Origin: Achromobacter dolens
GTDB taxonomy: Bacteria > Pseudomonadota > Gammaproteobacteria > Burkholderiales > Burkholderiaceae_B
DNA: 42,848 bases
Assembly (NCBI RefSeq): GCF_902859745.1
Contig: NZ_CADIJW010000048.1
Span: forward strand, 1 to 42,848
Reading direction: 5' to 3'
Both the position numbers and the translations under genes were made by a program. The first letter of the stretch is position 1, and every line of letters starts with the position of its first letter. The notes beneath the pieces were generated by a model. It worked only from the letters and a program-made list of their open reading frames with translations, had not been told where the DNA came from and did no database searches. Positions 22,308 through 33,183 of this stretch are shown piece after piece.

Positions 22308-22358
22308 TGGTGCCGGTGAAAGGAATCGAACCCTCGACCTTCTCATTACAAGTGAGCT
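22308..22358 (-). repeat. Left attachment repeat: displaced 3' part of tRNA-Thr
   Basis: Identical over 51 bases to 33108-33158 in the intact tRNA-Thr gene. It covers the encoded CCA, acceptor 3' strand, T arm and anticodon arm, and diverges at 22359 (AA instead of GC). It is a tRNA fragment and not a functional gene. It probably represents the original chromosomal 3' end, displaced when the element inserted and restored the tRNA with its own copy. Confidence 0.93.
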
Positions 22359-23052
22359 AAGAGGCAGTTGCGCCTCTTGTGCACCAAGGTCTTGATTTCA
22401 CAAACACTTCTGCTGGATGTTGAAACCAGTTAGAAATCAATGGTTTGCCGACAGCGCAGCCTCAAATCCCCATTTCGGTAGATCGAAGTACGCACCGGGA
22501 TTTCTGATCTTACCGAAAAAATTTGGCGCTAAGTGGAGCAGATTTGGCGCAAGGTTCGTGAGCGACGCCCTGCTATCGCGCCAGCGGGAGGTTGCGGTAC
22601 ATCGCGGGAGTTATGCGGTATATTTCCCGCAGGTCATAGCTTTGACCGCTGCCATCAGGCCAGTTTTTTTCCGGACTGCGTAAGCAGGCCATTAGAGTCG
22701 ACTGCGTGTGCGACCGATGTTTTCCGGACAGTGCGAGCAGCGGAGCATGGTCACCTCGGATGAGGCAATGAAGCGAAGGGCAGGCTTCGCGTTCATGACA
22801 TTAAACCTGCACGGAAAGCTCCTCGGGTACGCGACGAACCGGGGGGTGAGTAGGATCTAGTGCACATGCAGCGCGCGGTACGCTTCCCTTGATAGAAGAG
22901 GATAGCTGAAAGACCGGAACGACTAAGTGGCGACCGCAAGGCGTGTCGCATGTGCAGCCCCCGGGCGCGGGGGTTCGTTGACGGATACGTACCTTTCTGT
23001 TGCCACCTGACCCGCACGGCAGGCGATGTGGCGATCGCGAAGGCGTGCGTCC
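22359..23052. other. Non-coding left end of the island
   Basis: About 690 bases with no gene I can support. It contains a candidate integrase arm site (22532-22553), an extra GATTTGGCGC-like half copy just before it (22521-22529), a short inverted repeat GCGGGA/TCCCGC (22604-22609 and 22625-22630), and a GC hairpin at 22958-22973. An open frame of 88 codons at 22417-22683 crosses the arm site and looks like chance. The region may hold the promoter for the HTH-repA pair. Confidence 0.5.
22532..22553 (+). repeat. Candidate integrase arm-type site, left copy
   Basis: A 22-base sequence (AGTGGAGCAGATTTGGCGCA and two more bases) that matches 33030-33051 at 19 of 22 positions in the same orientation. 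One copy lies inside each end of the island, 174 bases in from the left repeat and 57 bases in from the right one. This placement suits arm-type binding sites of a tyrosine integrase or its excisionase. Confidence 0.45.
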
Positions 23053-23418
23053 ATGCAATTCGTAAACTCCGTCCAGCCGGCTTTTGCCACTTCCTCGCTA
23101 TCCTACCTGTCCACGAAGTATCCGCCGACGTTGAACGTCGAGCAGCTCGCAGAAATCACCAGCGAATCCCCGCAGACCATCCGTAACCGACTGACTCTTG
23201 GCACCTATCACGTGCCGTCGTTCAAGGTCGGGCGCAAGCGCGTGTTCCGACTGGTCGACGTGGCGCAGTTTCTCGATCAGAGCTTCTTTGATGATCCTAG
23301 CCATCCATCTCTCCGTCGGCCTAAGCGGGGAAGGCCGACGAAGGTAGATCGTGCAATGCGCGAGCAGCACCGCATCGCGGTAGTTGCAAGTAGTCCTGAT
23401 GTCGATGCGCAGGGGTGA
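23053..23418 (+). CDS. Helix-turn-helix DNA-binding protein (AlpA/MerR-like), partner of repA
   Basis: A 121-residue protein from the ATG at 23053. The middle has a winged-helix/excisionase-like motif: TLNVEQLAEITSESPQTIRN followed by a wing with FKVGRKRVFRLVDVAQFLDQ. The C-terminus has a basic RRPKRGRPTKVDR stretch containing an AT-hook-like RGRP. Its stop is 3 bases before the repA start, so the genes form an operon. It may control repA copy number or act as excisionase for the integrase; both are inference. Confidence 0.65.
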   Translation: MQFVNSVQPAFATSSLSYLSTKYPPTLNVEQLAEITSESPQTIRNRLTLGTYHVPSFKVGRKRVFRLVDVAQFLDQSFFDDPSHPSLRRPKRGRPTKVDRAMREQHRIAVVASSPDVDAQG

Positions 23419-23421
23419 GTC

Positions 23422-24372
23422 ATGTCCACCGCTCGCCAAATTCAGATTCCGTCGAGTTCGGCTGGCTTTGCTTCAGATCCTCGGACGGCGTTGAGTTTTG
23501 AGAACCGGCAGAAGCATGCTCAGAAGATCATCGCGCGCGGTGCTCAAATTGCGGAGACTCCACCGGGCGGGGATGACATGGCATTCGTCCACGCGGTGCT
23601 ATGTCAGGTCGGATTGCCCCGCTCTGAAGTCGAGGGTCGCGAATTTATGCGCCAGTCCGGCCAGGCTTGGGTGAATGTGCAAGCGGGCTGGCTGGACGAG
23701 GGGAATGGACCTGTGCCGCAACCCATCCCCTATGGCGTAATGCCCCGGCTTGCCCTCGCCTGGGTGTCCAGCTATGCCAAGCGTCACAATACGCGGCAAA
23801 TTCACATCGGTGACAGCGCAGCCGAGTTTCTGCGTCTGATGGGTATGGAAGTCGACGGCCGCCGCTATCTGACCTTGCGCAAGCAGATGCATGCGCTGGC
23901 CGCGTGTCGGTTGCAGCTCGGGTTCAAGGGTCGCACCTTCAACGGGCAGCCTGTCGAGCAGTTTGACGCCTGGGTGTCCAACCGCGCCACCCAGCAAAGA
24001 CCGCTCTGGCCAGGTGTCATGATTCTTTCAGAGCATTACTTCAACGAGCTGCGGGATAGTGCCGTTCCCCTAGATAATCGCGCCCTGCACGCGCTGAAAG
24101 GATCAGCATTGGCTTTGGATGTGTACTGCTGGTTGGCACATCGTCTGCACCGTATCGAGGGCAAGGGCGTCATGCTGTATTGGAAGTCCCTGCGCGAGCA
24201 GTTCGCCCAGGAATATACCGGAAAGAACGCTGACAAAGACTTCAAGAAGAAATTCGTACCAGCCTTGCGCAAGGTGCAGTCTGTTTATCCGACGGCCAAT
24301 GTCAAGCAGGTTACAGGCGGATTGTTGTTGCTCGGCTCGCCGCCACCTGTTCCGAAGAGGCTTGGGAAATAG
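23422..24372 (+). CDS. repA: Plasmid replication initiator, RepA (RepA_C family)
   Basis: A 316-residue protein similar to plasmid-encoded RepA initiators. The recognisable core runs from about residue 95 to 290: PIPYGVMPRLALAWVSSYAK, then a segment with IHIGDSAAEFLRLMGM, and later ALDVYCWLAHRLHRIEGKG and WKSLREQFAQEY, a winged-helix DNA-binding layout. It would bind iterons and start replication; four iteron-like repeats lie 170 bases downstream. It is translated 3 bases after the HTH gene. A replicon inside an integrated element suggests origin from a plasmid or an excised, self-replicating form. Confidence 0.8.
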   Translation: MSTARQIQIPSSSAGFASDPRTALSFENRQKHAQKIIARGAQIAETPPGGDDMAFVHAVLCQVGLPRSEVEGREFMRQSGQAWVNVQAGWLDEGNGPVPQPIPYGVMPRLALAWVSSYAKRHNTRQIHIGDSAAEFLRLMGMEVDGRRYLTLRKQMHALAACRLQLGFKGRTFNGQPVEQFDAWVSNRATQQRPLWPGVMILSEHYFNELRDSAVPLDNRALHALKGSALALDVYCWLAHRLHRIEGKGVMLYWKSLREQFAQEYTGKNADKDFKKKFVPALRKVQSVYPTANVKQVTGGLLLLGSPPPVPKRLGK

Positions 24373-24520
24373 GCTGCCTCTGAAGATGCCAAGGCCAGGT
24401 TTTCGTCCTGTGCATGGAGTTGGCCAGTTCGGCGACGTCATCAAGTCGCTCGTGAAATCAGCCGCCACGATCGATGCGACCAAGTGTATGGCGTCGCCGT
24501 CGAAAGACCGCGCAGAATCT

Positions 24521-24659
24521 TGTGGACAACAGAACTTATCCCCGTGAAATTGGCCCCCCCTGTTACGTGAAAGTAGACCCCCTTCGGGGCAGTTTCGTAC
24601 GTGAAATTGGCCCCCTTTTGCTCGTGAAATCAGACCCCCCCTAAAACCGGTACGGTTTT
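24521..24659 (+). repeat. Iteron-like repeat array with DnaA-box-like site (candidate origin)
   Basis: Four direct repeats with core CGTGAAA and a C-run start at 24543, 24566, 24600 and 24623. They alternate in two types: GTGAAATTGGCCCCC (first and third, identical) and GTGAAAgtAGACCCCC / GTGAAAtcAGACCCCC (second and fourth). Spacing is 23, 34 and 23 bases, so an A-B pair repeats with a 57-base period. TGTGGACAA at 24521-24529 is a one-mismatch DnaA box on the minus strand. A perfect inverted repeat AAAACCG/CGGTTTT (24643-24659) closes the array. A degenerate extra copy, CGTGAAATCAG, occurs at 24451. Together with upstream repA this looks like a plasmid origin. Confidence 0.6.
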
Positions 24660-24778
24660 CCTGTAAATACATTCCCTGTAGTTCCCTCTGGTAGTTAGGG
24701 AGCGCCAGTGTGTGGGGAACTCTCCGAGATTCCGATATCGGTGGGATGTGACCCATTGCGAAGGTCCAGGACAAGAGA

Positions 24779-24918
24779 CCCCCTCAAGGGGGCTGGATAA
24801 GGTGCGGGCGTTGCCCGCATCACCCCCAGGGCCGGGGGCTCAGCCCCCCTGTCCGGCCCTCTGGGCCGGCCCTTCGACCCCCCGGGGGCCTAGCAGCCCC
24901 CCGGCCGCACGCGGCCGG
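24779..24918. repeat. Cluster of six consecutive GC-rich hairpins
   Basis: Within 140 bases, six short inverted repeats follow one another: CCCCC/GGGGG (24779-24792), TGCGGGC/GCCCGCA (24803-24819), GGGGGCT/AGCCCCC (24834-24848), CCGGCCC/GGGCCGG (24853-24869), CCCCC/GGGGG (24879-24888) and CCGGCCGC/GCGGCCGG (24901-24918). No open frame explains them. They may terminate transcription, fold as single strands during replication or transfer, or block fork passage; function is unknown. The whole non-coding stretch between repA and the next gene is 24373-25052. Confidence 0.7.
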
Positions 24919-25052
24919 CTCCCCCCTGCGACCACCACGAGGTTCCCAGTCGGCAGGGCTAGAATCGCTCAGAACGACCTACGGGCGCACCTTTCGGACC
25001 TGGCAGCCCCACTTACCTTTTCGACCTGTTGGCGTTTTTGAGAGCTTTGGAC

Positions 25053-25277
25053 ATGCACGACAACCAAGACCGTTACCAACCTGTGCCGTTCGACCCCAAG
25101 GAGTTGGCGGCGAAGAGGTGCGTGGCCGAGCCGGCATTTCGAGCCGCCTACGATGCGCTCGAAGACGAATTCGCAGCGCTGCGGCGGCAGTGTCATGCTT
25201 TACATGGTGATCCGTCAGAGATCGAGGCCACGGGCCTTAGCGAAGTTGCGGTAGGGGTGATCAAGGGCTGGGAATGA
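25053..25277 (+). CDS. Hypothetical small protein
   Basis: A 74-residue acidic protein from the ATG at 25053 (MHDNQDRYQPVPFDPKELAA). The stretch AEPAFRAAYDALEDEFAALR resembles the N-terminal helix region of HigA/XRE antitoxins, but the helix-turn-helix that would follow is missing, so it may be a truncated or repurposed antitoxin. No toxin gene is adjacent. Probable but not certain gene. Confidence 0.45.
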   Translation: MHDNQDRYQPVPFDPKELAAKRCVAEPAFRAAYDALEDEFAALRRQCHALHGDPSEIEATGLSEVAVGVIKGWE

Positions 25278-25588
25278 CTCAGCGCGGTAACTTAGTAGCA
25301 GCGGGACCACCTCGAGCCTATGGTAGCCATGACCAAGCCCGACTTTCACCGGTGCAAGTCAACTAAAGGCCAAGGTCAGGCTTGCGTGTCAAACGAACCG
25401 ATACGCGACTACGCCAAGAGCCACCGTGACGAATAGGAATACGATGATTTTGCGTCGCAAAGCAGATATCGCATGCAAGCAGCGTGATGCCGACCCGTAC
25501 TTCACCAACAAGGAAGTGGAAGGTGATGCGTGCTGCACGCCGCGTAGAGCTGCTATTCCCTGCCGAAGGCGTCAGCACCCTGGGGCGG
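25278..25588. other. Intergenic stretch without recognised gene
   Basis: About 310 bases between convergent small genes. Two short plus-strand frames (25328-25435 and 25444-25599) show no ribosome-binding site and an unusual cysteine and arginine content, so I do not call them. No repeats or terminators stand out. Confidence 0.4.
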
Positions 25589-25849
25589 CTATGAATTGAG
25601 GTTAGGTCGCAGCGCACGACGTACAACTGGTGGCGCGCCCTCGAGCACGTGCCGCGCCGTCGCGATGGGCCACCAGCCGCCGGCCTTGCGGTAGGCGATC
25701 TCCTCCGGAGTCATGTTTTCGGCCAGTTCAGCCGATTCCCGCCACCACTCAGCCCACTCATCCAGCTCGGCCGGCGTGGCGGCCTGAGGCAAGGCCAGTC
25801 CCAACAGCTCAGCGATTTTTTCGGCAGACAGCATACCCCCCTTCACCAT
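25589..25849 (-). CDS. Hypothetical small protein at the end of the traY-like operon
   Basis: An 86-residue soluble protein, tryptophan- and glutamate-rich (DEWAEWWRESAELAENMTPE), that I do not recognise. The first ATG at 25849 overlaps the stop of the upstream gene by 7 bases; an internal ATG at 25834 follows a G-run and is an alternative start. Overlap indicates coupling to the 172-residue membrane protein gene. No function assigned. Confidence 0.55.
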   Translation of the reverse strand: MVKGGMLSAEKIAELLGLALPQAATPAELDEWAEWWRESAELAENMTPEEIAYRKAGGWWPIATARHVLEGAPPVVRRALRPNLNS

Positions 25850-26361
25850 CCAATCTGCTGTTTCAGTAGGGCATCGAAGACCGTGTGTTTGTCTCGATCA
25901 AGGGTAAAAACAAACGAACGTCCGTCGGCAAGGACGAATCGCGTTTCCACCGCCGTGTTCTTGTACTCTTCAGAACGACGAAGCAGATCCGAAACCGAAA
26001 ATATCCAGGGCTTTCGGAGGGTGTAAGGCCAGAAGATGACCTTCTGAGCCTTCGTATCGACGCCCATGTACTGGATGCAGCCATTGCTGAATTGTTCGAT
26101 GTTCGGCGACAGGCCTTCACGAGATTTGAGCTTGTTCACCCTATGCTGCAGCGATTCCTTGAAGTGCTCCGGCAACCCTTTGAACAGCGCCCAGCCCCCA
26201 CCAAAGACATAGACGCCGACACCCACGATCAGGGTCAGGCTCCCCTCATAGTTGTTCCGTAGGCCGGCCAGGCCGGAGAGCAGCACGACGACCGCCGCAA
26301 TCAACCCGAAAACCCAGAATGGCCTTACGAGGCCCCACAAGAAAAGAAGTAGCACACGCAT
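25843..26361 (-). CDS. Small membrane protein downstream of traY/dotA-like gene (possible entry-exclusion protein)
   Basis: A 172-residue protein with two N-terminal hydrophobic segments (LLLFLWGLVRPFWVFGLIAA and LTLIVGVGVYVFGGGWALF) and a cytoplasmic C-terminal domain of about 115 residues. I do not recognise the sequence. It lies 16 bases after a DotA/TraY-family gene, the position occupied by the exclusion gene excA in IncI plasmids, where TraY of the donor is the target of recipient exclusion. Size and membrane topology would fit such a role. This is inference from position and topology only. Confidence 0.6.
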   Translation of the reverse strand: MRVLLLFLWGLVRPFWVFGLIAAVVVLLSGLAGLRNNYEGSLTLIVGVGVYVFGGGWALFKGLPEHFKESLQHRVNKLKSREGLSPNIEQFSNGCIQYMGVDTKAQKVIFWPYTLRKPWIFSVSDLLRRSEEYKNTAVETRFVLADGRSFVFTLDRDKHTVFDALLKQQIGW

Positions 26362-26377
26362 TTTTTGGTTCCTTGGT

Positions 26378-29104
26378 TTACTTCCGTTCGCCGTTTAGCC
26401 CGTTTCTCTTGAGTGCGCTTGGAAATTGTCCTTTGTGACGACCGTACATGAGAGGGCTCAGCTGAGCCGATAGCGCACCCACTGCACGATGCGCGTCATC
26501 GTTGGGAGACGTGCCAAGATGCGGCGAGGCATGCCCACCCACCCAGTTAATCACCTGGTCCGGCACGATCACGATCAGATTGAAGCAGCGATGTACCAAG
26601 TTCATGCACAATGAGCAGTAGAGAATAACGAAGCCCAGGGCGCTGACCATGCCCGTCATCGAGTCGAACTGGGCATTTACCATGGCAATGCCGAAGGTCT
26701 TGTTCAACAGGTTTCCGCCGGCAGCGATCGCCACTCCAGCCATGAAGAAACCGACCACCATCAGCAGCGGGCGCACCATCATGTTCAGAAGAAAGATGTA
26801 GCCGTGGCCGCTACGATGTCCCATGCCGTCACCTTCACCGCTCATGTGCGTCATGGCCCAAAGTGGCGCGGCGATGATGGCCTCGCCCACCACCACTAGC
26901 CAGTTGATTGCGGCGCCAAACCACACAACAAAGGGAATCATGGGCAGGTAGATCGACAGGACAATGCCTGCACCCATGAACCCCAAGATCAGGATTCGTA
27001 GATAGGGCTCTACAGTATTGATGACAGCATCAACCCCCTTTCCAATCCCAATCACCAAGTTCCCGACACTGCCAAGCAAACCGCCATTCGCCATGGCCAC
27101 GGCGAATTTCAGTCCTGCATACCCGGCGACTGCACCCGTGGCAAGCCCAAGGATGTCATCTCCGATGTTCTTCATGCCAATGAGCGGGTTCGTGGTCAAA
27201 CCATCCGGCGAGCCCAGAAGCCGGTTGGTCAAGGCAACCGCAGCTCGTTGCCCAGGCCCAGCCATGACGCTGCTCATGATTTTTTCGACTTCCGAGCCCT
27301 TTGTTTCGTTGGAACGAGAGGCCGACAACGAGCTGACTCCAGAAGATGAGCCACTTTGCTCGGATTGCGCCGTATAGGCGACCATCACCTTATCGTATAG
27401 GAACTTGATACCCGGGTCTCCGACAATCGATTCACCGAACACATGGGCTTTGGCGGCCATGGCGGTGTTCAACTTCGTGTTCGCTTGTGCAAATGTCTGG
27501 TACCAACCGCCTAAGCCCCACCAGCCTTGGCTTTGAAGTGATGATGAAATCTGAGAGGACAGCGCAGCGATTTGGCTATTTGTCGTTGCAGCCTGCGACG
27601 TGACCACGCTTTCATAGGCTTGTGCGGCAGACTGAATCGTGGCCTCTGCATTGGGCAATTGGACATCGCCGTTCTTCGTCCTGACCACAATCTTTGCGAC
27701 GAAATCCGAAGCTCCTTGCCAGAGGGTGCTTTGCATAGCCTTGAGGCCATTCAGATGTGCGGCTTTGATATCCGAAACGTCAATATCGGGTCCCCAAAAG
27801 GAATCCGAGTTCTTTTTCACCCCTGGCGCGGTGTCTTGCGCGCTCGTTACATCTGCCCCGCCGCAGACATACGTGTTCGACCTGAAAATCATGCCGGTCA
27901 GGGTGTCTTGGGGCTGGACATAGCTACTCGGCAGAACCCATCCCCCTTCCGTCTTAGCCTGGTCTAGTCCGAGATTGATGCTGTACATGCATAGATTGGC
28001 CTGGTAGAGGCTTCTCGCCAGCTCCACCGTGCTGGGCATAACCGGCTGCGCCACCATGGTTTGCCCGCTGGCCAGTGCATCGGTCGCCGCGCGCGTGGCC
28101 AAGTTCGCCGTACCTACGCCCATAATCGACGCCGCCCATAGCATGAGCAACTGGGATATCGACCAGCCGTTGGCCGTGGGTGCCAGCGACGCGATCGCAA
28201 TAATCACGCGTATCGGAGCGTGTACCAGCCCTCGGCCCTGCTCGAAGACTGTTCCGTCGTGGGCTGCAGCCGCTACCTTTTTGAAGGCCATGTAGCCGCC
28301 AAGCACCAGGGATACCGAGAGCAATGCGGAATTCCCAATTTGGAAGATCCTGGCCAGGATCGTGTCGCCGCCGCTGGCGCTCGTCGCCAGAGGGGTGTTG
28401 ACAACCTGGCCGAAAATCCCGATCAGCGCCTGACGGGATAGGTCCGAGGTCGTCTTCGCGGCCGCGCTGATCTCGCCCAGCGACATACCCTGTGCCCAGG
28501 CTGCACCCACAAACGCCAGGGCGCCCAGCAGGGGCACAGCCAGTAGCACCTGGAGCATGCCGCGCGAGATTCCGATTTCCGGGCTCAGGGCCTGCAAGGC
28601 CCAATCCCGCTCCTCCCGCCTGAAATCTTCAAAGCCGCCGCGATCCGCCCGCGACAGCCGTCGAGTCCGAAGCTGCCACAGCCGGAACTGCGCCGACAGC
28701 GCCCACAAGAACGAAGCAACGCCACTGGCTCCAGCGCTCATCGCCGCCAAGCCCATTCCGGCGAGATCCCCGTGATCAGCCGACGCCAGGAACCCTATGC
28801 CGGGCAACATCAAGAGCAGGCCGCCCAGCGCCAGCGCCAAACGCTTGCGCATGAGGAAGTGCCGCCGTAGCGCGACAAGGCGCAGGGCCATTTCGTCGTT
28901 GAACACCTCTTCGAATGAGCGATCCTCGGCAGCTTGAGGCGCTTGCCTGTCGGCGCGCAAGCCATCGACCATAGCCTTGATCTCAGTGAGACCAGAAAGG
29001 GATTGCTTCGTGGTGTTGACCAGTAGTTGGACTGACTTGACCGCGGGCCGCCAGGGCAGCAGGACATCCAGAAAAAGGATTCCGAGCCATTTCTTCGTGT
29101 TCAC
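26378..29104 (-). CDS. DotA/TraY-family conjugal transfer membrane protein
   Basis: A 908-residue inner-membrane protein of the type IVB secretion DotA/TraY family. Hydrophobic segments cluster near residues 90-140, 185-210 and 260-330, then a large probably periplasmic region with few hydrophobic stretches, then several helices from about 640 to 850, including PLWAMTHMSGEGDGMGH, a stretch typical of DotA/TraY, and FNLIVIVPDQVINWVGG near the end. It starts with GTG inside GTGA, overlapping the stop of the upstream small gene. TraY normally works in a full T4B apparatus, but no other tra/dot gene is visible here, so it is an orphan component. Confidence 0.8.
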   Translation of the reverse strand: MNTKKWLGILFLDVLLPWRPAVKSVQLLVNTTKQSLSGLTEIKAMVDGLRADRQAPQAAEDRSFEEVFNDEMALRLVALRRHFLMRKRLALALGGLLLMLPGIGFLASADHGDLAGMGLAAMSAGASGVASFLWALSAQFRLWQLRTRRLSRADRGGFEDFRREERDWALQALSPEIGISRGMLQVLLAVPLLGALAFVGAAWAQGMSLGEISAAAKTTSDLSRQALIGIFGQVVNTPLATSASGGDTILARIFQIGNSALLSVSLVLGGYMAFKKVAAAAHDGTVFEQGRGLVHAPIRVIIAIASLAPTANGWSISQLLMLWAASIMGVGTANLATRAATDALASGQTMVAQPVMPSTVELARSLYQANLCMYSINLGLDQAKTEGGWVLPSSYVQPQDTLTGMIFRSNTYVCGGADVTSAQDTAPGVKKNSDSFWGPDIDVSDIKAAHLNGLKAMQSTLWQGASDFVAKIVVRTKNGDVQLPNAEATIQSAAQAYESVVTSQAATTNSQIAALSSQISSSLQSQGWWGLGGWYQTFAQANTKLNTAMAAKAHVFGESIVGDPGIKFLYDKVMVAYTAQSEQSGSSSGVSSLSASRSNETKGSEVEKIMSSVMAGPGQRAAVALTNRLLGSPDGLTTNPLIGMKNIGDDILGLATGAVAGYAGLKFAVAMANGGLLGSVGNLVIGIGKGVDAVINTVEPYLRILILGFMGAGIVLSIYLPMIPFVVWFGAAINWLVVVGEAIIAAPLWAMTHMSGEGDGMGHRSGHGYIFLLNMMVRPLLMVVGFFMAGVAIAAGGNLLNKTFGIAMVNAQFDSMTGMVSALGFVILYCSLCMNLVHRCFNLIVIVPDQVINWVGGHASPHLGTSPNDDAHRAVGALSAQLSPLMYGRHKGQFPSALKRNGLNGERK

Positions 29105-29373
29105 GCTGCCACCCCCGGCATGGCACGACCAGCCTCTCCCCGAAACATCTCCAGGGCTTCCTGGTTATGTCGAAACACGTAATCCGGGTAGGCCGGGAGG
29201 CCCCTGGCATGGCGCTTCAGCAGCTCGGCTATGTGTTCACCGGATAGTTGCTGCTGCCGCAACGCTTGGATATCCCTGTGGTGCAATGCTGCGTTGACGG
29301 CCGCCATCCTCCGCTGCGCTGCGTGCAGACGCGCGATGTCATCCTCTAAGGCAATCAGATTTTTGTTTCCCAT
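29101..29373 (-). CDS. Hypothetical small protein upstream of traY/dotA-like gene
   Basis: A 90-residue soluble, helix-rich protein (MGNKNLIALEDDIARLHAAQ). I chose the ATG at 29373, preceded by AGGTGG, over the in-frame GTG at 29382. Its stop TGA overlaps the GTG start of the DotA/TraY-family gene, so the two are translationally coupled. No family recognised. It is the first gene of the four-gene minus-strand operon. Confidence 0.6.
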   Translation of the reverse strand: MGNKNLIALEDDIARLHAAQRRMAAVNAALHHRDIQALRQQQLSGEHIAELLKRHARGLPAYPDYVFRHNQEALEMFRGEAGRAMPGVAA

Positions 29374-29911
29374 GACCACCACCTGCTAATACGCAGGACT
29401 GGTGATCTGGCCTTATGTGATGCAGACCACGTCCTGCTGCATTACCTACCGGCCTGTTGCCGGACGTGTCATCGGATTTTTCGCCAGCCGATGCCGCAGG
29501 AAGGTCTTGGGAATGTTCACCGTGCTACGCAGATGACGGGGGCCCCACGGCCTTATTGATGGTGATTTTCTACCGCGCCTTGTTGTACCAAGCCTCAGGG
29601 AAAACCACTCTCGAATTATATCCGCTCGCCGTCAACGCAGCCATTCCTTTGGCCTGCTATGCGATTCTTTTCCCGGTGTTTACTGCATGGGCGACTAGCG
29701 GTGCAGTTAGGTTCCTATGAGAATGCAGACATGTCCACGGAGTGACAACATTTACTTCGGACAGGGTAGGGATTGATATACCGCGCAAAGCGCGCTATAT
29801 CAACCGGCCAGCGTCCAGTCGTTGCTCTCCCTACCTTTTGGCCTTCGCCCTGCTCAGGGCTACGCCCCGAGACCCCGGTATACTCAGGAGCCTGCTCATG
29901 GCAGGCCGTAG
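29374..29911. other. Intergenic region with oriT-like site and hairpins
   Basis: About 540 bases between the traY-like operon and the reverse transcriptase gene. Besides the oriT-like site it holds the inverted pair GGTAGGGA (29765-29772) and TCCCTACC (29828-29835), hairpin GCCCTG/CAGGGC (29847-29860) and hairpin GCCTGC/GCAGGC (29890-29906). A plus-strand frame at 29457-29720 encodes a short hydrophobic C-terminus but lacks a ribosome-binding site; I do not call it. The retron RNA could also lie here, although upstream of the RT is more usual. Confidence 0.5.
29758..29803 (-). other. Candidate origin of transfer (oriT): inverted repeat plus nic-like site
   Basis: On the minus strand an inverted repeat with 14-base arms (29790-29803 and 29773-29786, 13 of 14 paired, loop of 3; outer arms TTGATATA/TATATCAA) is followed after 11 bases by TACCCTG|TCCG. 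This matches the IncP/IncI nic consensus YATCCTG|Y at 7 of 8 positions and shares CCTGTCC with R64. Inverted repeat followed closely by nic is the standard layout for MOBP relaxases. No relaxase is encoded in the window, so transfer would need one in trans. Assignment is by motif only. Confidence 0.5.
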
Positions 29912-31024
29912 CTAGTTCGTCGGCGCATCCGAGAGGTCGAGCTGCTCCCTGAGCTGCACTCCACCCATGGTTGCCACTGTGCGTGGGTTTGAGCGACCGC
30001 GCTTACGACGTGGTCCCCCTATTGATCTCGATAGGCGCGGAGCGACTTGTGCCTTCGCTGCGGCAAGTAACTTCACGCTGTCACTCGCCATTCTCTTGTA
30101 CGCAGGGTCAAGGAAGGCAGCTTCCCCCAGAAGGCCACACAGTTTTGCAGCTAGCAGTACGCGTTTTCGACTATCTTTCTCGGCGTAGAGAGCGATCCGA
30201 ATGGCGCGAGCCTTGTGAAAACGAGCGTGTGGCACTCGTAGTGACTGACCTGTGATAACAACGCCGGTGACATGCTTGGGACGGCTGGGGCCGAAGATTT
30301 TGGTCTTATGCCCGGAGAGCTTATGCCCGTGGCTCTTGACGATGCCTTCTATTTGGTCAGCCAGACTTCGCGGAATCGCATCGCCGGATAGGGTGATGTC
30401 GTCGACGTAGACTGACAATTTCAACCGCAATACCTTTCCACGCCGATCGATCGTCTCGAACAAGCGCCGATTCGCCCAATAGGCCAAGATCGGACTGGTA
30501 GGAGCTCCTGTGGGTAGAACGTGCCCGTGTGTGCATAGGTCCGTCAAGAGGCCTGCCACATCTGGCGCGCATTCCAGATCCTTGCTGAAGAACTGGAACA
30601 CCTGCTTTGATGTGGTAGTGGGGAAGAAATCCTTGAGGTCGAACGTCGCTACTGACTGCGCGCCGACATGGGCCTGTGCATTCGATCGATACGACCGACC
30701 TGGTGTTGCTCCGTGGCAGTAGTCTGGCACACGGACGCGGGAAAGCAATTTGGTTATGCGTGCGAGTATTGCCTTGAGTTCGGGGACGGGATTCTGTACC
30801 CATCGCGCTTTGCGGGTCTTGCCAGTGAACTCACAAACTTCAGCTTCTAGCTCAAAGACTTGGAAGTTTCCCTCGTCAGCTGATAGACGTATTAAGTCGG
30901 CAACATTGACGCCAAGGATTTTTTCCAGCCTCTTTTTGGAACCCACTTTATAGAGGGCGCACTGATTCAATGCATAAGTCTTCCGCGGCTTAGCTGGTGC
31001 GGGCGGCTTTTGATTTTCTGACAC
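29912..31024 (-). CDS. Retron-type reverse transcriptase
   Basis: A 370-residue RNA-directed DNA polymerase of the retron class. Visible motifs: retron NAxxH at 115-119 (NAQAH), motif A with D129 in FDLKDFFPT, motif B PTGAPTSP (171-178), catalytic YVDD (206-209), and retron VTG (252-254). The C-terminus is basic (GGPRRKRGRSNPR). I chose the GTG at 31024, preceded by GGTGGAAG and overlapping the XRE-type gene by 35 bases. A GTG at 31159 would add 45 residues read in another frame over that gene. In retrons this enzyme makes msDNA from a linked non-coding RNA, usually in phage defence. No group II maturase domain is seen. Confidence 0.88.
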   Translation of the reverse strand: MSENQKPPAPAKPRKTYALNQCALYKVGSKKRLEKILGVNVADLIRLSADEGNFQVFELEAEVCEFTGKTRKARWVQNPVPELKAILARITKLLSRVRVPDYCHGATPGRSYRSNAQAHVGAQSVATFDLKDFFPTTTSKQVFQFFSKDLECAPDVAGLLTDLCTHGHVLPTGAPTSPILAYWANRRLFETIDRRGKVLRLKLSVYVDDITLSGDAIPRSLADQIEGIVKSHGHKLSGHKTKIFGPSRPKHVTGVVITGQSLRVPHARFHKARAIRIALYAEKDSRKRVLLAAKLCGLLGEAAFLDPAYKRMASDSVKLLAAAKAQVAPRLSRSIGGPRRKRGRSNPRTVATMGGVQLREQLDLSDAPTN

Positions 31025-31307
31025 TCTTTGCTTCCACCCATTGAAGTAATGCCAGCACCTTCTTTGCAGCTCCCACGCGCAGGGTGCTTGTGAGACCTGT
31101 TTGATGGAGGTTTTCCGAAAAGAACAACAACGATGAAACGGGGATGCCGAAATATTCACTATATCTATTCAGCATCTCCAGCGATGGCTGCTTCTTGCCG
31201 GACTCGATTTCCGACAGGTAGGAGTTGGAGATTCCTAGCTGAGCACAGAGCTCTGATTGCGACAGGTCGTGATAGGCCCTGACAAGCCTTAGCGCTTCAT
31301 TCAACAT
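30990..31307 (-). CDS. XRE-family helix-turn-helix protein, probable retron partner
   Basis: A 105-residue protein with an N-terminal XRE/Cro helix-turn-helix (LSQSELCAQLGISNSYLSEI followed by ESGKKQPSLEMLNRYSEYFG) and a short basic C-terminal tail. Its last 35 bases overlap the reverse transcriptase gene, so the two are translated together. Retron families with an HTH protein as the accessory partner are known. It could be the effector, or a repressor of the retron operon. No separate toxin gene is evident unless the small W-rich frame upstream is real. Confidence 0.82.
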   Translation of the reverse strand: MLNEALRLVRAYHDLSQSELCAQLGISNSYLSEIESGKKQPSLEMLNRYSEYFGIPVSSLLFFSENLHQTGLTSTLRVGAAKKVLALLQWVEAKSVRKSKAARTS

Positions 31308-31347
31308 GAGATGGCCTTAGTGGTAAAAAGATCAGGAGTAGTCGCCA

Positions 31348-31536
31348 TCACCAGAGATCACCGAACCAGTCGCGGAGCACTTGCCAGTGATCCTTGATCC
31401 AATTCCAGCGCCCATCTACCCAGTTGGATGCCCGGTAGAGGGCTGCTGCCAAGCCGAGAATCCTTCTGAGGATCACGACCTTCGGTTTCTTCCGTTCCGT
31501 CGACGGGCACGGTTTTGCGGTTTCATTAGGTGTCAT
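31348..31536 (-). CDS. Possible small tryptophan-rich protein upstream of the retron genes
   Basis: A 62-residue frame from the ATG at 31536. The N-terminal half is basic (KPCPSTERKKPKVVILRRIL) and the C-terminal half is amphipathic and unusually rich in tryptophan (NWVDGRWNWIKDHWQVLRDW then FGDLW). It lies 40 bases before the XRE-type gene on the same strand. There is no convincing ribosome-binding site and the region may instead be retron RNA, so this is tentative. If real, a small membrane-active toxin-like peptide would be one reading. Confidence 0.35.
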   Translation of the reverse strand: MTPNETAKPCPSTERKKPKVVILRRILGLAAALYRASNWVDGRWNWIKDHWQVLRDWFGDLW

Positions 31537-31772
31537 ATAAGCCTTTCATGTTGCGACATCAACAACCCTGTTGGGACTTTCCCACTTGGGCCTGATGCCT
31601 CTCGTACGCTCATGATCGGCGACAACTTGGAGAAAACCGCGCTTTTCCCCCCGAGCCAGTTACCCGAGTCCGGTTCTCGTCCGGACTCGGCTATCCCCTG
31701 CCTGCCGGAGAGTCGTGGCGGTGAGGCCGCGTCCGTCCGTCTGGTCTGGGATTGGGTAGGGGCTTTGACACC
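31529..31772 (-). ncRNA. Candidate retron msr-msd RNA region
   Basis: Retron RNAs usually lie upstream of their RT operon, bounded by complementary ends. On the minus strand GGTGTCAAAGCC (31772-31761) can pair with GGCTTATATGACACC (31543-31529), leaving a 3-base bulge. Between lie a perfect 10-bp hairpin CCGAGTCCGG/CCGGACTCGG (31664-31690) and a hairpin in which GGCATCA can pair with TGATGTC around GGGA/TCCC. I cannot fold the RNA or identify the branching guanosine, and the 3' end overlaps the start of the small W-rich frame. Location is a suggestion, not a demonstrated RNA. Confidence 0.3.
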
Positions 31773-31862
31773 CCCGCGGGACCGAAGCCCCCGATGCTAC
31801 GAGACATAAATCTCCGTAACCGCGGAGCTAGTCTAGCCGTACAGATAGCCTGCGTCAATTTT

Positions 31863-31884
31863 TTTCGCTATGAGCGAAATTTTT
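31863..31884 (+). terminator. Hairpin with T-run after the integrase gene
   Basis: TTTCGCT (31863-31869) pairs with AGCGAAA (31873-31879) around ATG, followed on the plus strand by TTTTT. The T-run is on the plus strand, so it would stop transcription towards the integrase gene rather than out of it. It lies in the 364-base non-coding stretch 31537-31900 between the integrase and the retron genes. Confidence 0.45.
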
Positions 31885-31900
31885 ACCTCGCGGTTTGCAG

Positions 31901-32986
31901 TCACCCTAATTTCTTCGCAAGATCCTCAGCTCGGGGGTGGTAATAGCGCATGAGCATGCGGGGGTCTCGGTGCCCCGTGATTTTGGCTAGTTCGTGCATA
32001 GGGAAGATCGACGCCAGGCGAGACGTGGCCTCATGGCGCAGGTCGTGGAACCGTAGGTCTGTCAGAAATTGCTTGTCTGGCTGTTTGCCTGCCGTCGCGC
32101 ACTCCTGTTCATAGATGGCCCTGGCGCGTTTGAGCGCGCGGTTAAAGGCGCGACTGACAGCGTCTGCGGTCATGTCGAATACTAAGGCGCAGCCCTGCCT
32201 GCCTTTAAGCTGATCTTCGAAAATTTGGACGGCGCGCGTGGACAAAGGAATGTCACGCGAGTTGCCATTCTTCGTTTCAGGCAGATGGGCCACTCGGCGT
32301 TTCAAGTCCAAGTGCTCGGGCAGCAAGGTTGCGAGCTCACTGCGGCGCATTGCGGTTTCAATGGCGACCCAAATGACCGCAGGGAGTGTCTTGGAGTGGC
32401 TGGCGGCCACTACGCGATCTATCTCATTGTTCGAGGTCTGCCGGTTGCCGTCTTCAGAATCTGGTTCTTCGGCAGCGATCCTGCGAGTGCGTAGATTGTT
32501 GGCCTGGGGTTTGCGCACCAACTCCACTGGGTTGACCAGGCTCTCCATGCCCCATTCCTTACGCGCAATCGTGAATACATGGGAGAGCGTGGCCAGGTGG
32601 CGCAAAACCGAAGCTGGCTTCAAGGGTGGATTCGTCGCTTTGAGCCATTCATCACGCAGCTTGGCGATATCGGCACTACGTACAGCCGCCATGTAGCGCG
32701 CTGACAATGGGGTCTTGCTCCATGTACGTAGCAAGGACAGCTCGCGCGTATGGCTTTTCTTGCCAGGCGAGATCTCGCGCGCGTAACGGGCGAGCGCTTC
32801 AGCCAGTGTGGTCGATTCGGCTTCGACGCGACTGACGAAGACGCCGCGGTCAATTTCAGACTCTACCTGTCGTGCCCAGGCTTCCGCATCGGCGCGCGTG
32901 TTGAACGTCTTGATTTGAACGGGATAGCCCCTACGCCTTACCCGAGCCTGCCATTGCAGATCACCACGTCGAGAGATCGATGCCAC
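31901..32986 (-). CDS. Tyrosine recombinase/integrase of the island
   Basis: A 361-residue site-specific recombinase. The N-terminal part has an AP2/arm-binding-like start (MASISRRGDLQWQARVRRRG) and a core-binding SAM-like domain at about 60-145. Catalytic residues are all present: R214 (AMRRSEL), K239 (ETKNG), H314xxR317 (HDLR), H339 (GHRD) and the nucleophile Y348 (MRYYH). It lies 121 bases inside the right boundary, beside the intact tRNA-Thr, the usual arrangement for tRNA-targeting integrases. It would catalyse integration and excision between the two 51-bp repeats. Confidence 0.93.
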   Translation of the reverse strand: MASISRRGDLQWQARVRRRGYPVQIKTFNTRADAEAWARQVESEIDRGVFVSRVEAESTTLAEALARYAREISPGKKSHTRELSLLRTWSKTPLSARYMAAVRSADIAKLRDEWLKATNPPLKPASVLRHLATLSHVFTIARKEWGMESLVNPVELVRKPQANNLRTRRIAAEEPDSEDGNRQTSNNEIDRVVAASHSKTLPAVIWVAIETAMRRSELATLLPEHLDLKRRVAHLPETKNGNSRDIPLSTRAVQIFEDQLKGRQGCALVFDMTADAVSRAFNRALKRARAIYEQECATAGKQPDKQFLTDLRFHDLRHEATSRLASIFPMHELAKITGHRDPRMLMRYYHPRAEDLAKKLG

Positions 32987-33029
32987 TTACTGCTCCTCAA
33001 GTTGCTGCTCTACCTGCCTTAACGGCTAG

Positions 33030-33051
33030 AGTGGAGCAAAATTGGCGCAAT
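33030..33051 (+). repeat. Candidate integrase arm-type site, right copy
   Basis: Matches the left copy at 19 of 22 positions. It lies between the integrase start and the tRNA-Thr attachment repeat, where arm-type sites or the integrase operator would be expected. Confidence 0.45.
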
Positions 33052-33107
33052 AAATCGAATCGACCAAAGAAAAAGGGCTTGGCCAGCGGCTAAGCCCTTG
33101 ATTTTAC

Positions 33108-33183
33108 TGGTGCCGGTGAAAGGAATCGAACCCTCGACCTTCTCATTACAAGTGAGCTGCTCTACCAACTGAGCTACACCGGC
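33108..33183 (-). tRNA. tRNA-Thr (anticodon TGT), right attachment site of the island
   Basis: A 76-base cloverleaf on the minus strand beginning GCCGGTGTAGCTCAGTTGG and ending with an encoded CCA. The anticodon TGT is at 33150-33148 in CTTGTAA. Its 3'-terminal 51 bases (33108-33158) are repeated exactly at the left boundary of the island. The gene is complete, so integration restores a working tRNA. Confidence 0.96.

Follow-up and report, generated by a model that had tools for sequence, protein, structure and literature searches.

An insert of about 10.8 kb in a tRNA-Thr gene of Achromobacter dolens is probably a non-canonical integrative and mobilizable satellite of T4B/MPF_I plasmids, one that would add a pore subunit and an exclusion identity to its helper. 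Coordinates refer to the window, the whole stretch of 42,848 nucleotides that was analyzed.

Results

The limits of the element are set by the following features.

22308..22358, no strand, left attachment repeat, 51 bp of the 3' part of tRNA-Thr, a perfect copy of 33108-33158
33108..33158, no strand, right attachment repeat, within tRNA-Thr, a perfect copy of 22308-22358
33108..33183, minus strand, tRNA-Thr (TGT), the integration target (ARAGORN; Rfam tRNA, 70.5 bits)
31901..32986, minus strand, tyrosine integrase, 361 aa (Pfam Phage_integrase, 1e-22; 70% identical in a sister element of Achromobacter pulmonis)

The 51-bp perfect direct repeats have a spacing of 10,800, the right copy being the 3' part of the tRNA gene, and the adjacent gene is that of a tyrosine integrase, in agreement with the original prediction on both points. 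The GC content is 57.6% inside the insert versus 68.2 and 65.3% outside. Comparison with genomes lacking the insert, which had been proposed as a check, revealed an empty tRNA-Thr site in one genome of the same genus (G038) and a second in G027, where the left match extends over only 60 bp; an integrase, direct repeats at the target, and an unoccupied site elsewhere, as expected of an integrative and mobilizable element (IME), are all present. Besides the integrase, the A. pulmonis sister shares RepA (71%), oriT (78%), and TraY (48%), and because it holds this same set, a series of unrelated insertions is ruled out and the view of a single coherent tRNA-integrated element is upheld. The sister occupies another tRNA with 45-bp repeats, carries Gabija and another candidate defense but no retron, and retains mobA and relaxase fragments. 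A 10.4-kb insert at the same tRNA-Thr in a further genome (G025) represents a distinct element that has an integrase of a different kind.

The replication and transfer-origin region comprises the following.

23026..23418, plus strand, HTH_17-like DNA-binding protein (HTH_17, 3.1e-5, 24.6 bits, slightly below the Pfam cut-off of 27; 55% in the sister)
23422..24372, plus strand, RepA replication initiator (RepA_C, 2.5e-17)
24451..24638, plus strand, five iteron-like repeats, putative oriV (pattern scan)
29101..29382, minus strand, 93-aa plasmid-backbone ORF (51% to an ORF close to RepA on a Bordetella pseudohinzii plasmid)
29755..29880, plus strand, oriT including a covarying inverted repeat (homology to the B. 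pseudohinzii oriT; plasmid matches; covariation)

Both repA and the iteron-like repeats had been predicted and were found. RepA matches those of small plasmids at up to 82% across 84% of the protein, and the five iteron-like 16-mers, with two mismatches or fewer, compare with an expectation of 0.095 in mononucleotide shuffles; in the sister, four such repeats lie immediately behind repA. The oriT-like site, originally proposed without a position, was located by homology, positions 29732-29911 matching the oriT of the B. pseudohinzii plasmid at 81% over 182 columns (E = 4e-41; oriT identity 81-86%). In its hairpin, drawn from the window sequence itself, 12 cells changed on both sides versus 4.3 in shuffles (0 of 500), and two of the five covariation measures are weakly or not above shuffles (166/500 and 23/500). 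On homology, with partial support from covariation, 29755-29880 is judged to be a real oriT resembling the one on an MPF_I-type plasmid, and a helper may recognize it.

The claim that the element lacks a relaxase and a coupling protein holds for the ten element ORFs scanned, where the only relaxase name to come up was MobT, which matched the helix-turn-helix part of the retron HTH protein at 18.8 bits, versus a cut-off of 600. A search of the whole genome for a resident helper found no TraU, TraW, or helper-type relaxase, and this result supports the predicted dependence on a helper. Of the 43 genomes of the genus, only 2 have a strong TraU match (30% identity), which indicates no nearby helper and counts against the satellite reading. 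The TraJ profile says little, since all of its matches fell below the cut-off and they occurred in all 20 genomes as well as in 13 of 14 controls. A further point against is that the MOB-suite typing in PLSDB places the B. pseudohinzii plasmid in the "mobilizable" and not in the conjugative class, although its annotation and profile matches give an MPF_I gene set.

The pore gene and the candidate exclusion gene are encoded on the minus strand.

26378..29104, minus strand, TraX-TraY fusion of the DotA/TraY family, 908 aa (TIGR04346, 8.2e-128; NF033887 TraX, 3.7e-14)
25843..26361, minus strand, candidate entry-exclusion protein Exc, 172 aa (position after traY; alignment; hhalign to ExcA; AlphaFold)
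25589..25849, minus strand, 86-aa ORF overlapping the end of exc, without a Pfam match

The first of these, originally described as a single DotA/TraY-like T4B protein, passes the DotA/TraY profile (427.8 bits versus a cut-off of 100), but the description is refined in that it is a fusion of TraX and TraY, the TraX part scoring 52.7 bits, below its cut-off of 100. It is closest to the B. pseudohinzii T4B plasmid protein (65-66% identity), so that oriT and TraXY are each nearest to one and the same plasmid, and its profile matches the solved DotA structure 9ngy (2e-40). Exc lies directly after traY and is a membrane protein, as expected of an ExcA-type protein, and the suggestion of an exclusion protein is borne out with respect to its place and family, which are those of the genes after traY in MPF_I plasmids, but not by the curated IncI1 ExcA model, the cut-off of which it missed (E = 0.03; 13.8 bits versus 100). 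Its predicted structure has two long helices and a β domain (AlphaFold pLDDT 90.1), and hhalign links it weakly to IncI ExcA (probability 58.5%, E = 9.6e-5); its sequence profiles gave no convincing match in the PDB (best E = 0.26). Relative to the nearest plasmid, that of B. pseudohinzii, the identity of Exc is 15% versus about 66% for TraY. Exc looks like the "keep-out" protein that matches TraXY. TraY residues 586-685 track the type of Exc (p = 0.001), a signal that was less sharp once near-copies were removed; for this repeat test 12 genome-scan loci were offered, the Exc proteins of L155, L158, and L159 were left out for lack of the required motif, and the 26 pairs were reduced to 18 by near-copy removal.

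Orphan traY genes have dN/dS values of 0.09-0.41 in seven overlapping pairs, versus lower values of 0.04-0.05 in two conjugative pairs, and by this measure are under purifying selection. This bears on the possibility that Exc keeps incoming MPF_I plasmids out, to the benefit of cell and element alike, with TraXY carried only through co-transcription. A candidate exc does follow traY in the sister and in seven small plasmids, and among the IMEs of IncC plasmids some are known to exert exclusion while lacking pore genes (PMC11493245), but Exc alone would then suffice, and yet traY is kept under selection; moreover, an Exc unlike that of the nearest helper is not expected to refuse that helper. 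A role in exclusion only is consequently regarded as unlikely.

Examination of other genomes for the same gene set, as had been suggested, yielded the A. pulmonis sister described above, and traY-exc unaccompanied by other transfer-channel genes occurs also in islands of Xanthomonas, Burkholderia, and Pseudomonas and in seven small plasmids. One genome scan placed 17 of 38 evaluable TraY loci in the class without TraU (the sister being included and two loci at contig ends, L157 and L181, removed). A related integrase is found at 12 of these 17 loci versus none of the 21 that bear TraU (Fisher, 2e-6), and in 15 of the 17 genomes TraU had no match anywhere, the control genome being positive. Among the 60 plasmid matches listed, seven of the eight plasmids with TraY that are under 42 kb lack the helper's other channel genes. 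The sister module is 97.7-98.4% identical in Xanthomonas cissicola and A. pulmonis, an identity that marks a recent passage of the module between distantly related bacteria. An invariable retention of exactly traX-traY-exc was considered and dropped: the traX profile is positive in the window and in four relatives (L018, L019, L020, and L153), whereas the short ORF before traY did not match it in the other five of the nine relatives tested (L052, which is the A. pulmonis sister, L147, L170, L021, and L117), and this inconstancy slightly lowers confidence in both the satellite reading and the cassette reading discussed below.

The element might instead be an integrated MPF_I plasmid that has lost its tra genes, with traXY-exc as leftovers devoid of a present role. 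The plasmid-derived look of its replication functions and oriT, the relaxase and mobA fragments in the sister, and a traY that is split in one relative (L152) would all fit such a history, which is nevertheless unlikely given that traY-exc is kept across different replicons and hosts from which the other channel genes are missing, that the dN/dS values are those cited above, and that the TraY tree cannot be explained with fewer than two switches between the satellite and the conjugative state, the direction of which it does not tell.

TraY was present in only two of nine fetched non-conjugative plasmids that have this oriT, and among the seven small TraY plasmids, five that have their own relaxase (L017-L021) gave no match to the oriT; oriT and TraY are therefore not tied to each other. 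The seven oriT plasmids without TraY are what would be expected if the element moved by its oriT alone, with traXY-exc and the retron as incidental cargo, but the repeated retention of traY-exc in several genera, in islands beside a related integrase, makes this very improbable.

Broader surveys give an impression of scale. A survey of the order for the integrase (E = 1e-60) gave 27 of 399 genomes, a count that includes the source genome of the window, and led mostly to other islands; when six others were viewed in more DNA, two of them on contigs of only 6.5 and 7.2 kb, TraY was nearby only in one (G150) and divergent. DotA/TraY is found in 18 of the 399 genomes (15 above the cut-off), distant relatives included. 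Plasmid records with TraY number 3959 versus 3768 with TraU, and those not typed as conjugative 675 versus 549, which suggests on the order of 200 orphan-traY records, a figure taken from the difference of totals.

Discussion

MPF_I plasmids, which include IncI, IncL/M, and related types, are major vehicles for bacterial genes, and within the literature searched, pore-remodelling satellites are described only for IncC (shown) and IncP (proposed). If the element is a satellite, entry of a helper plasmid would be followed by its excision and replication via RepA, its oriT would be acted on by the relaxase, the NikA-like protein, and the coupling protein of the helper, and TraXY would take the place of the helper's own subunit in the helper pore. 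Since IncI entry exclusion involves recognition of donor TraY by ExcA of the recipient (PMC11493245), recipients in which the helper already resides would not turn away a pore built with satellite TraY, and the satellite could thereby invade helper-bearing populations, the cells of which are closed to the helper plasmids themselves. The satellite Exc, being of another type than the helper's, would refuse a second satellite-type pore. A published account of IncL and IncM plasmids reports that they have divergent traX, traY, and excA and are compatible in conjugation (PMC4416936).

The original statement that no described family is recognizable was too strong, since the same strategy, with other transfer systems, has been described for the IMEs SGI1, GISul2, and IncP island. 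PMC5389848 and PMC5704250 describe SGI1 family members (IncA/IncC helpers) as integrated, without a relaxase, with their own replication, and with distant copies of a few helper pore subunits; SGI1 evades IncC exclusion, a substitution by TraG_S disabling entry exclusion of the helper (PMC5389848). SGI1 has MPF_F genes (traN, traH, and traG) and a trmE or dusA site, in contrast to the MPF_I TraX-TraY and tRNA-Thr of the present element. Control by AcaCD is a further trait of the SGI1 family. GISul2 and the IncP island (proposed helper IncP, MPF_T) are integrative and have RepA, a VirB6-type TrbL, and TrbJ, while a gene for the exclusion protein TrbK is shown in GISul2 and suggested in the IncP island, which also has its own relaxosome genes (PMC5704250). 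These have TrbJ, TrbK, and TrbL and a guaA target instead of TraX, TraY, Exc, and tRNA-Thr; no Trb protein was found among the ten ORFs, save for a sub-cut-off TrbA match of the retron HTH protein. Closer in sequence are the B. pseudohinzii plasmid (NZ_CP016441), which differs in being free and in having a full annotated transfer-gene set, a relaxase, and another Exc type, and small MOBP plasmids with orphan traY-exc, such as NZ_CP053650 (13.7 kb; RepA 73%, traX-traY-exc), which differ in being free, having their own relaxase, and leaving the integrase and oriT unmatched. The pore-remodelling satellite strategy is thus already known, and no MPF_I version of it was found in the literature searched.

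A more tentative proposal, possible rather than probable, is that traY-exc, whether or not traX accompanies it, forms a portable T4B "exclusion identity" cassette, repeatedly captured or exchanged by satellites and small plasmids in many Proteobacteria so as to re-label the helper pore; MPF_I exclusion groups would then be made and unmade in an arms race with satellites and not by plasmids alone. The clear gene pair of this recurrent set of islands and plasmids opens the diversification of exclusion specificities to direct testing.

Anti-phage systems (retron, Gabija) travel on such satellites, and in the present element the cargo is as follows.

29912..31159, minus strand, type VI retron reverse transcriptase (RT_VI, 6.5e-81; YVDD present; putative start, the match beginning at residue 67)
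30990..31307, minus strand, type VI retron HTH protein (HTH_VI, 7.3e-37)
31661..31820, minus strand, candidate structured RNA upstream of the retron genes, possibly msr-msd

The predicted retron RT-XRE pair is present and can be typed as VI, RT_VI and HTH_VI being adjacent as in that type, with an ncRNA that here is a candidate only. The role in managing competition between plasmids that had been attributed to it is not sustained: because the sister has Gabija and another candidate defense in its place, the retron is on this comparison variable cargo, which would pay for residence as an exchangeable anti-phage function. Rfam has no match at 31661-31820, which is the best-folding 160-nt stretch (-75.7 kcal/mol, a value without a shuffle control).

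Boundaries and gene content of the element

The 51-bp perfect direct repeat by which the element was originally delimited was recovered at 22308-22358 and 33108-33158, with the predicted spacing of 10,800 bases, and the 3' part of tRNA-Thr(TGT) (33108-33183) forms the right copy. The GC content is 57.6% inside the element versus 68.2% and 65.3% in its flanks; the genome that holds the window comprises 6.29 Mb in 114 contigs.

Features of the element
HTH_17-like regulator (profile match just under the cut-off)
RepA (RepA_C profile)
Five iteron-like 16-mers behind repA
Exc, a 172-aa membrane protein
TraX-TraY fusion (TraXY), 908 aa (DotA_TraY 8.2e-128; TraX 3.7e-14, under the TraX cut-off)
93-aa plasmid-backbone ORF
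Type VI retron (RT_VI 6.5e-81, HTH_VI 7.3e-37)
31901-32986, tyrosine integrase (profile search)

As had been predicted, a profile search of the ten ORFs found neither a relaxase nor a coupling protein in the element; a MobT match, far below the cut-off, falls on the helix-turn-helix in the HTH protein of the retron. A profile of TraXY and its relatives matched the solved structure of DotA (9ngy) at 2e-40. Relatives lacking the insert at this tRNA-Thr had been proposed as a check, and an unoccupied site was seen in one genome of the genus (G038), where the left flank extends across the 51-bp site and the right flank resumes from the tRNA with no element in between (flank matches of 75% over 396 columns and 80% over 932 columns); in another (G027), 933 columns of the right flank are matched but just 60 bp of the left. 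Element DNA was matched in all 43 genomes of the genus; among the matches listed, most are to the tRNA itself, the only full-length match is in G000, and matches in several parts are found in Achromobacter pulmonis (G036). In contig C72 of G025, the same tRNA-Thr holds a different element (L053; 10.4 kb), which has a 52-bp repeat and a distinct integrase; the tRNA is therefore an integration site shared in the genus.

Relatives of the integrase (31901-32986) occur in 2379 plasmid records, nearly all at <60% identity and mostly conjugative, of which 1469 are from Escherichia; the integrase may be linked to shufflon recombinases. Upstream of the retron genes, a 62-aa ORF with a tryptophan-rich end (31348-31536) and a strongly folding stretch (31661-31820) are possible parts of the retron.

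The oriT and the likely kind of helper

Among 72,556 plasmid records, the TraXY nearest to that of the window comes from a Bordetella pseudohinzii plasmid of 68.5 kb (NZ_CP016441), with 65% identity over the whole length. When ten transfer proteins of this plasmid were scanned, TraO, TraQ, TraW, TraJ, TraK, and the relaxase were above curated cut-offs, DotI/TraM was below its cut-off, and three had no match. It should be noted that PLSDB types the plasmid as "mobilizable," so that its conjugation is inferred from the annotated gene set. Window positions 29732-29911 match the stretch directly before its mobA (NikA-like) gene (81%, E 4e-41). This oriT is matched by 54 plasmid records, of which 28 are typed conjugative; in nine of the 54, the match spans just 32-35 bases. 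The inverted repeat shows covariation across 11 aligned oriTs, with 72.7% of its cells paired versus 63.5% in shuffles and 12 versus 4.3 cells altered on both sides; these measures and the covariation score were reached by none of 500 shuffles, but pairs with a double change (166/500) and pair types (23/500) are less striking, and all such counts are inflated by related sequences and use a structure drawn from the window. Every covariation measure drops when the hairpin partners are slid by 1 to 3 columns. The oriT of the element thus differs from that of the helper in ways that largely keep the hairpin.

Searches of the element's own genome for TraU, TraW, and a helper-type relaxase found none; strong TraU matches occur in two of the 43 genomes of the genus, at 30% identity, and two further genomes have TraU matches near E 2e-4 only. 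Just two of the nine non-conjugative plasmids sharing the oriT that were examined carry TraY (L022 and L117). Two Chromobacterium violaceum plasmids with the same oriT (L113 and L119) have contractile injection/phage-tail-like gene annotations and no relaxase annotation.

Proposed mechanism and precedents

The element would be excised and then mobilized by a T4B/MPF_I-type helper and, if the logic of SGI1 is transferred, TraXY would replace the pore subunit of the helper, and Exc, a candidate entry-exclusion protein, would be the exclusion partner of TraXY. By analogy, pore-subunit replacement with exclusion is the best reading of the element. The pore subunits of SGI1 have been shown to replace those of its helper, and it was suggested that exclusion is thereby disabled (PMC5389848). 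An IME review lists SGI1 (TraG, TraH, TraN), GISul2 (TrbJ, TrbK, TrbL, RepA), and an IncP island as pore reshapers, shown or presumed (PMC5704250). On these precedents, the helper-pore strategy is already known in the case of MPF_F, and for MPF_T it has been proposed; searches of the open PubMed Central literature, mostly at the level of listings, found no MPF_I case. The element would be an MPF_I variant of this strategy.

Possible specificity of TraY and Exc

TraY segments recognized by ExcA were reportedly described by Sakuma et al. in 2013. The gene order in one IncI-gamma plasmid is traU-V-W-X-Y-excA, and the alignment of the Exc family matches the ExcA of that plasmid weakly (probability 58.5%, E 9.6e-5). 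The AlphaFold model of Exc has two long helices, a seven-stranded domain, and a last helix (pLDDT 90.1); the charges suggest that the domain is cytoplasmic. IncL and IncM plasmids, with cores ~94% identical and ExcA, TraY, and TraX at 35, 59, and 75%, are reported to be compatible in conjugation tests (PMC4416936).

Compared with the Bordetella plasmid, the window has an Exc identity of 15% and a TraY identity of 66%; in 40-residue windows, the latter is 78-90% at starts 206-346, shows a shallower dip (48-52%) at 426-466, drops to 28-42% at 566-666, and is back at 92% at 726-746. Across 17 elements (14 windows, p uncorrected), two TraY segments, 586-635 (partial r 0.47) and 636-685 (partial r 0.34), correlate with Exc identity more than the remaining TraY explains (permutation p 0.001); for 336-385, p is 0.007. 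When a less redundant set of 18 elements and 24 windows is used, the tracking persists at 606-635 (p 0.005) and 666-695 (p 0.001), is absent at 636-665, and is equal or stronger at both TraY ends. This TraY segment should be taken as a lead and not as a result. Mean Exc identity is 19% for satellite-conjugative pairs, 28% for conjugative pairs, and 35% for satellite pairs.

Related islands and plasmids

A search for the same gene set elsewhere, suggested in the original prediction, yielded a sister element in A. pulmonis (TraY locus in ANB-1, NZ_POQS01000001), which spans 17.2 kb at tRNA-Ala(CGC) and is bounded by perfect repeats of 45 bp. It shares the integrase (70%), RepA (71%), HTH protein (55%), oriT (78%), and TraY (48%), and also has four iterons, an Exc-like gene of 173 aa, and fragmentary mobA and relaxase genes. 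In place of the retron it carries Gabija (GajA 9e-46, GajB 2e-23) and a PDC-S21/DUF4917 candidate (9e-124).

A scan of genome contigs with the TraY alignment gave 40 loci, 21 with TraU beside TraY and 19 without; once two loci truncated at contig ends are set aside, TraU is missing from 17 of 38, including the sister. A related integrase accompanies 12 of these 17 versus none of the 21 (Fisher 2e-6, for loci that are not a random sample and include several close kin). TraU had no match anywhere in 15 of the 17 genomes, the control genome being positive at 100%. The order integrase, small gene, traY, exc-like gene recurs in Xanthomonas cissicola, Ca. Burkholderia verschuerenii, Burkholderia guangdongensis, and Pseudomonas tremae. 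For the small gene, the profile identifies TraX in L018, L019, L020, and L153 (E 5e-15 to 8e-14 or better; like that of the conjugative control L132, these matches score under the cut-off), and tblastn does so in L017 and L152; the TraX profile has no match in the 108-114-aa ORF before traY of L052, L147, L170, L021, and L117, so that the pair common to these relatives is traY-exc. That ORF has no NCBIfam match and is a possible TraX replacement. The modules of X. cissicola and A. pulmonis share 97.7% identity over 3531 bases and 98.4% over 1354 bases, a similarity that points to recent transfer between distant hosts.

Among the 60 TraY plasmid matches listed, seven of the eight records <42 kb (13.7 to 38.5 kb; Burkholderia, Xanthomonas, Pseudomonas) carry traY and a following 167-174-aa gene, with no match to the other channel genes of the helper. 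Five (L017-L021) have their own MOBP relaxase and no match to the oriT of the window. The integrative element L121 (contig C34 of G150) follows the same idea in a second and fuller design: it combines an integrase related at 47% with a divergent orphan DotA/TraY of 790 aa, a NikA-like protein, a relaxase, and a coupling protein. Loci L165-L175 except L170 (Paraburkholderia, Burkholderia, Pandoraea, Ralstonia) have TraY at 36-39% and no TraU, several with a TraW-like gene and often with tRNA-Arg or tRNA-Val and a related integrase; in L166, large ORFs behind TraY look restriction-system-like by eye only. Two chromosomal loci of the genus (L057 in G007, L058 in G018) encode divergent DotA/TraY (26-27%), with no TraU or TraW match genome-wide.

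Selection and phylogeny

Orphan traY, lacking TraU and other channel genes, has dN/dS of 0.09 to 0.41 in seven pairs that share sequences, and exc of orphan pairs 0.09 to 0.31; two conjugative pairs give 0.04-0.05 for traY and 0.08-0.12 for exc. dS is saturated between the window and the Bordetella plasmid. The TraY tree groups the window with the Bordetella plasmid (100/100) and the sister with a Xanthomonas plasmid (98/100), and its starred branches require two or more switches between a satellite and a conjugative state, the direction of which it does not tell. In the near-identical modules L147 and L148, dS is 0.22 for exc versus 0.03 for traY, an excess that would fit a recombinational exchange of exc.
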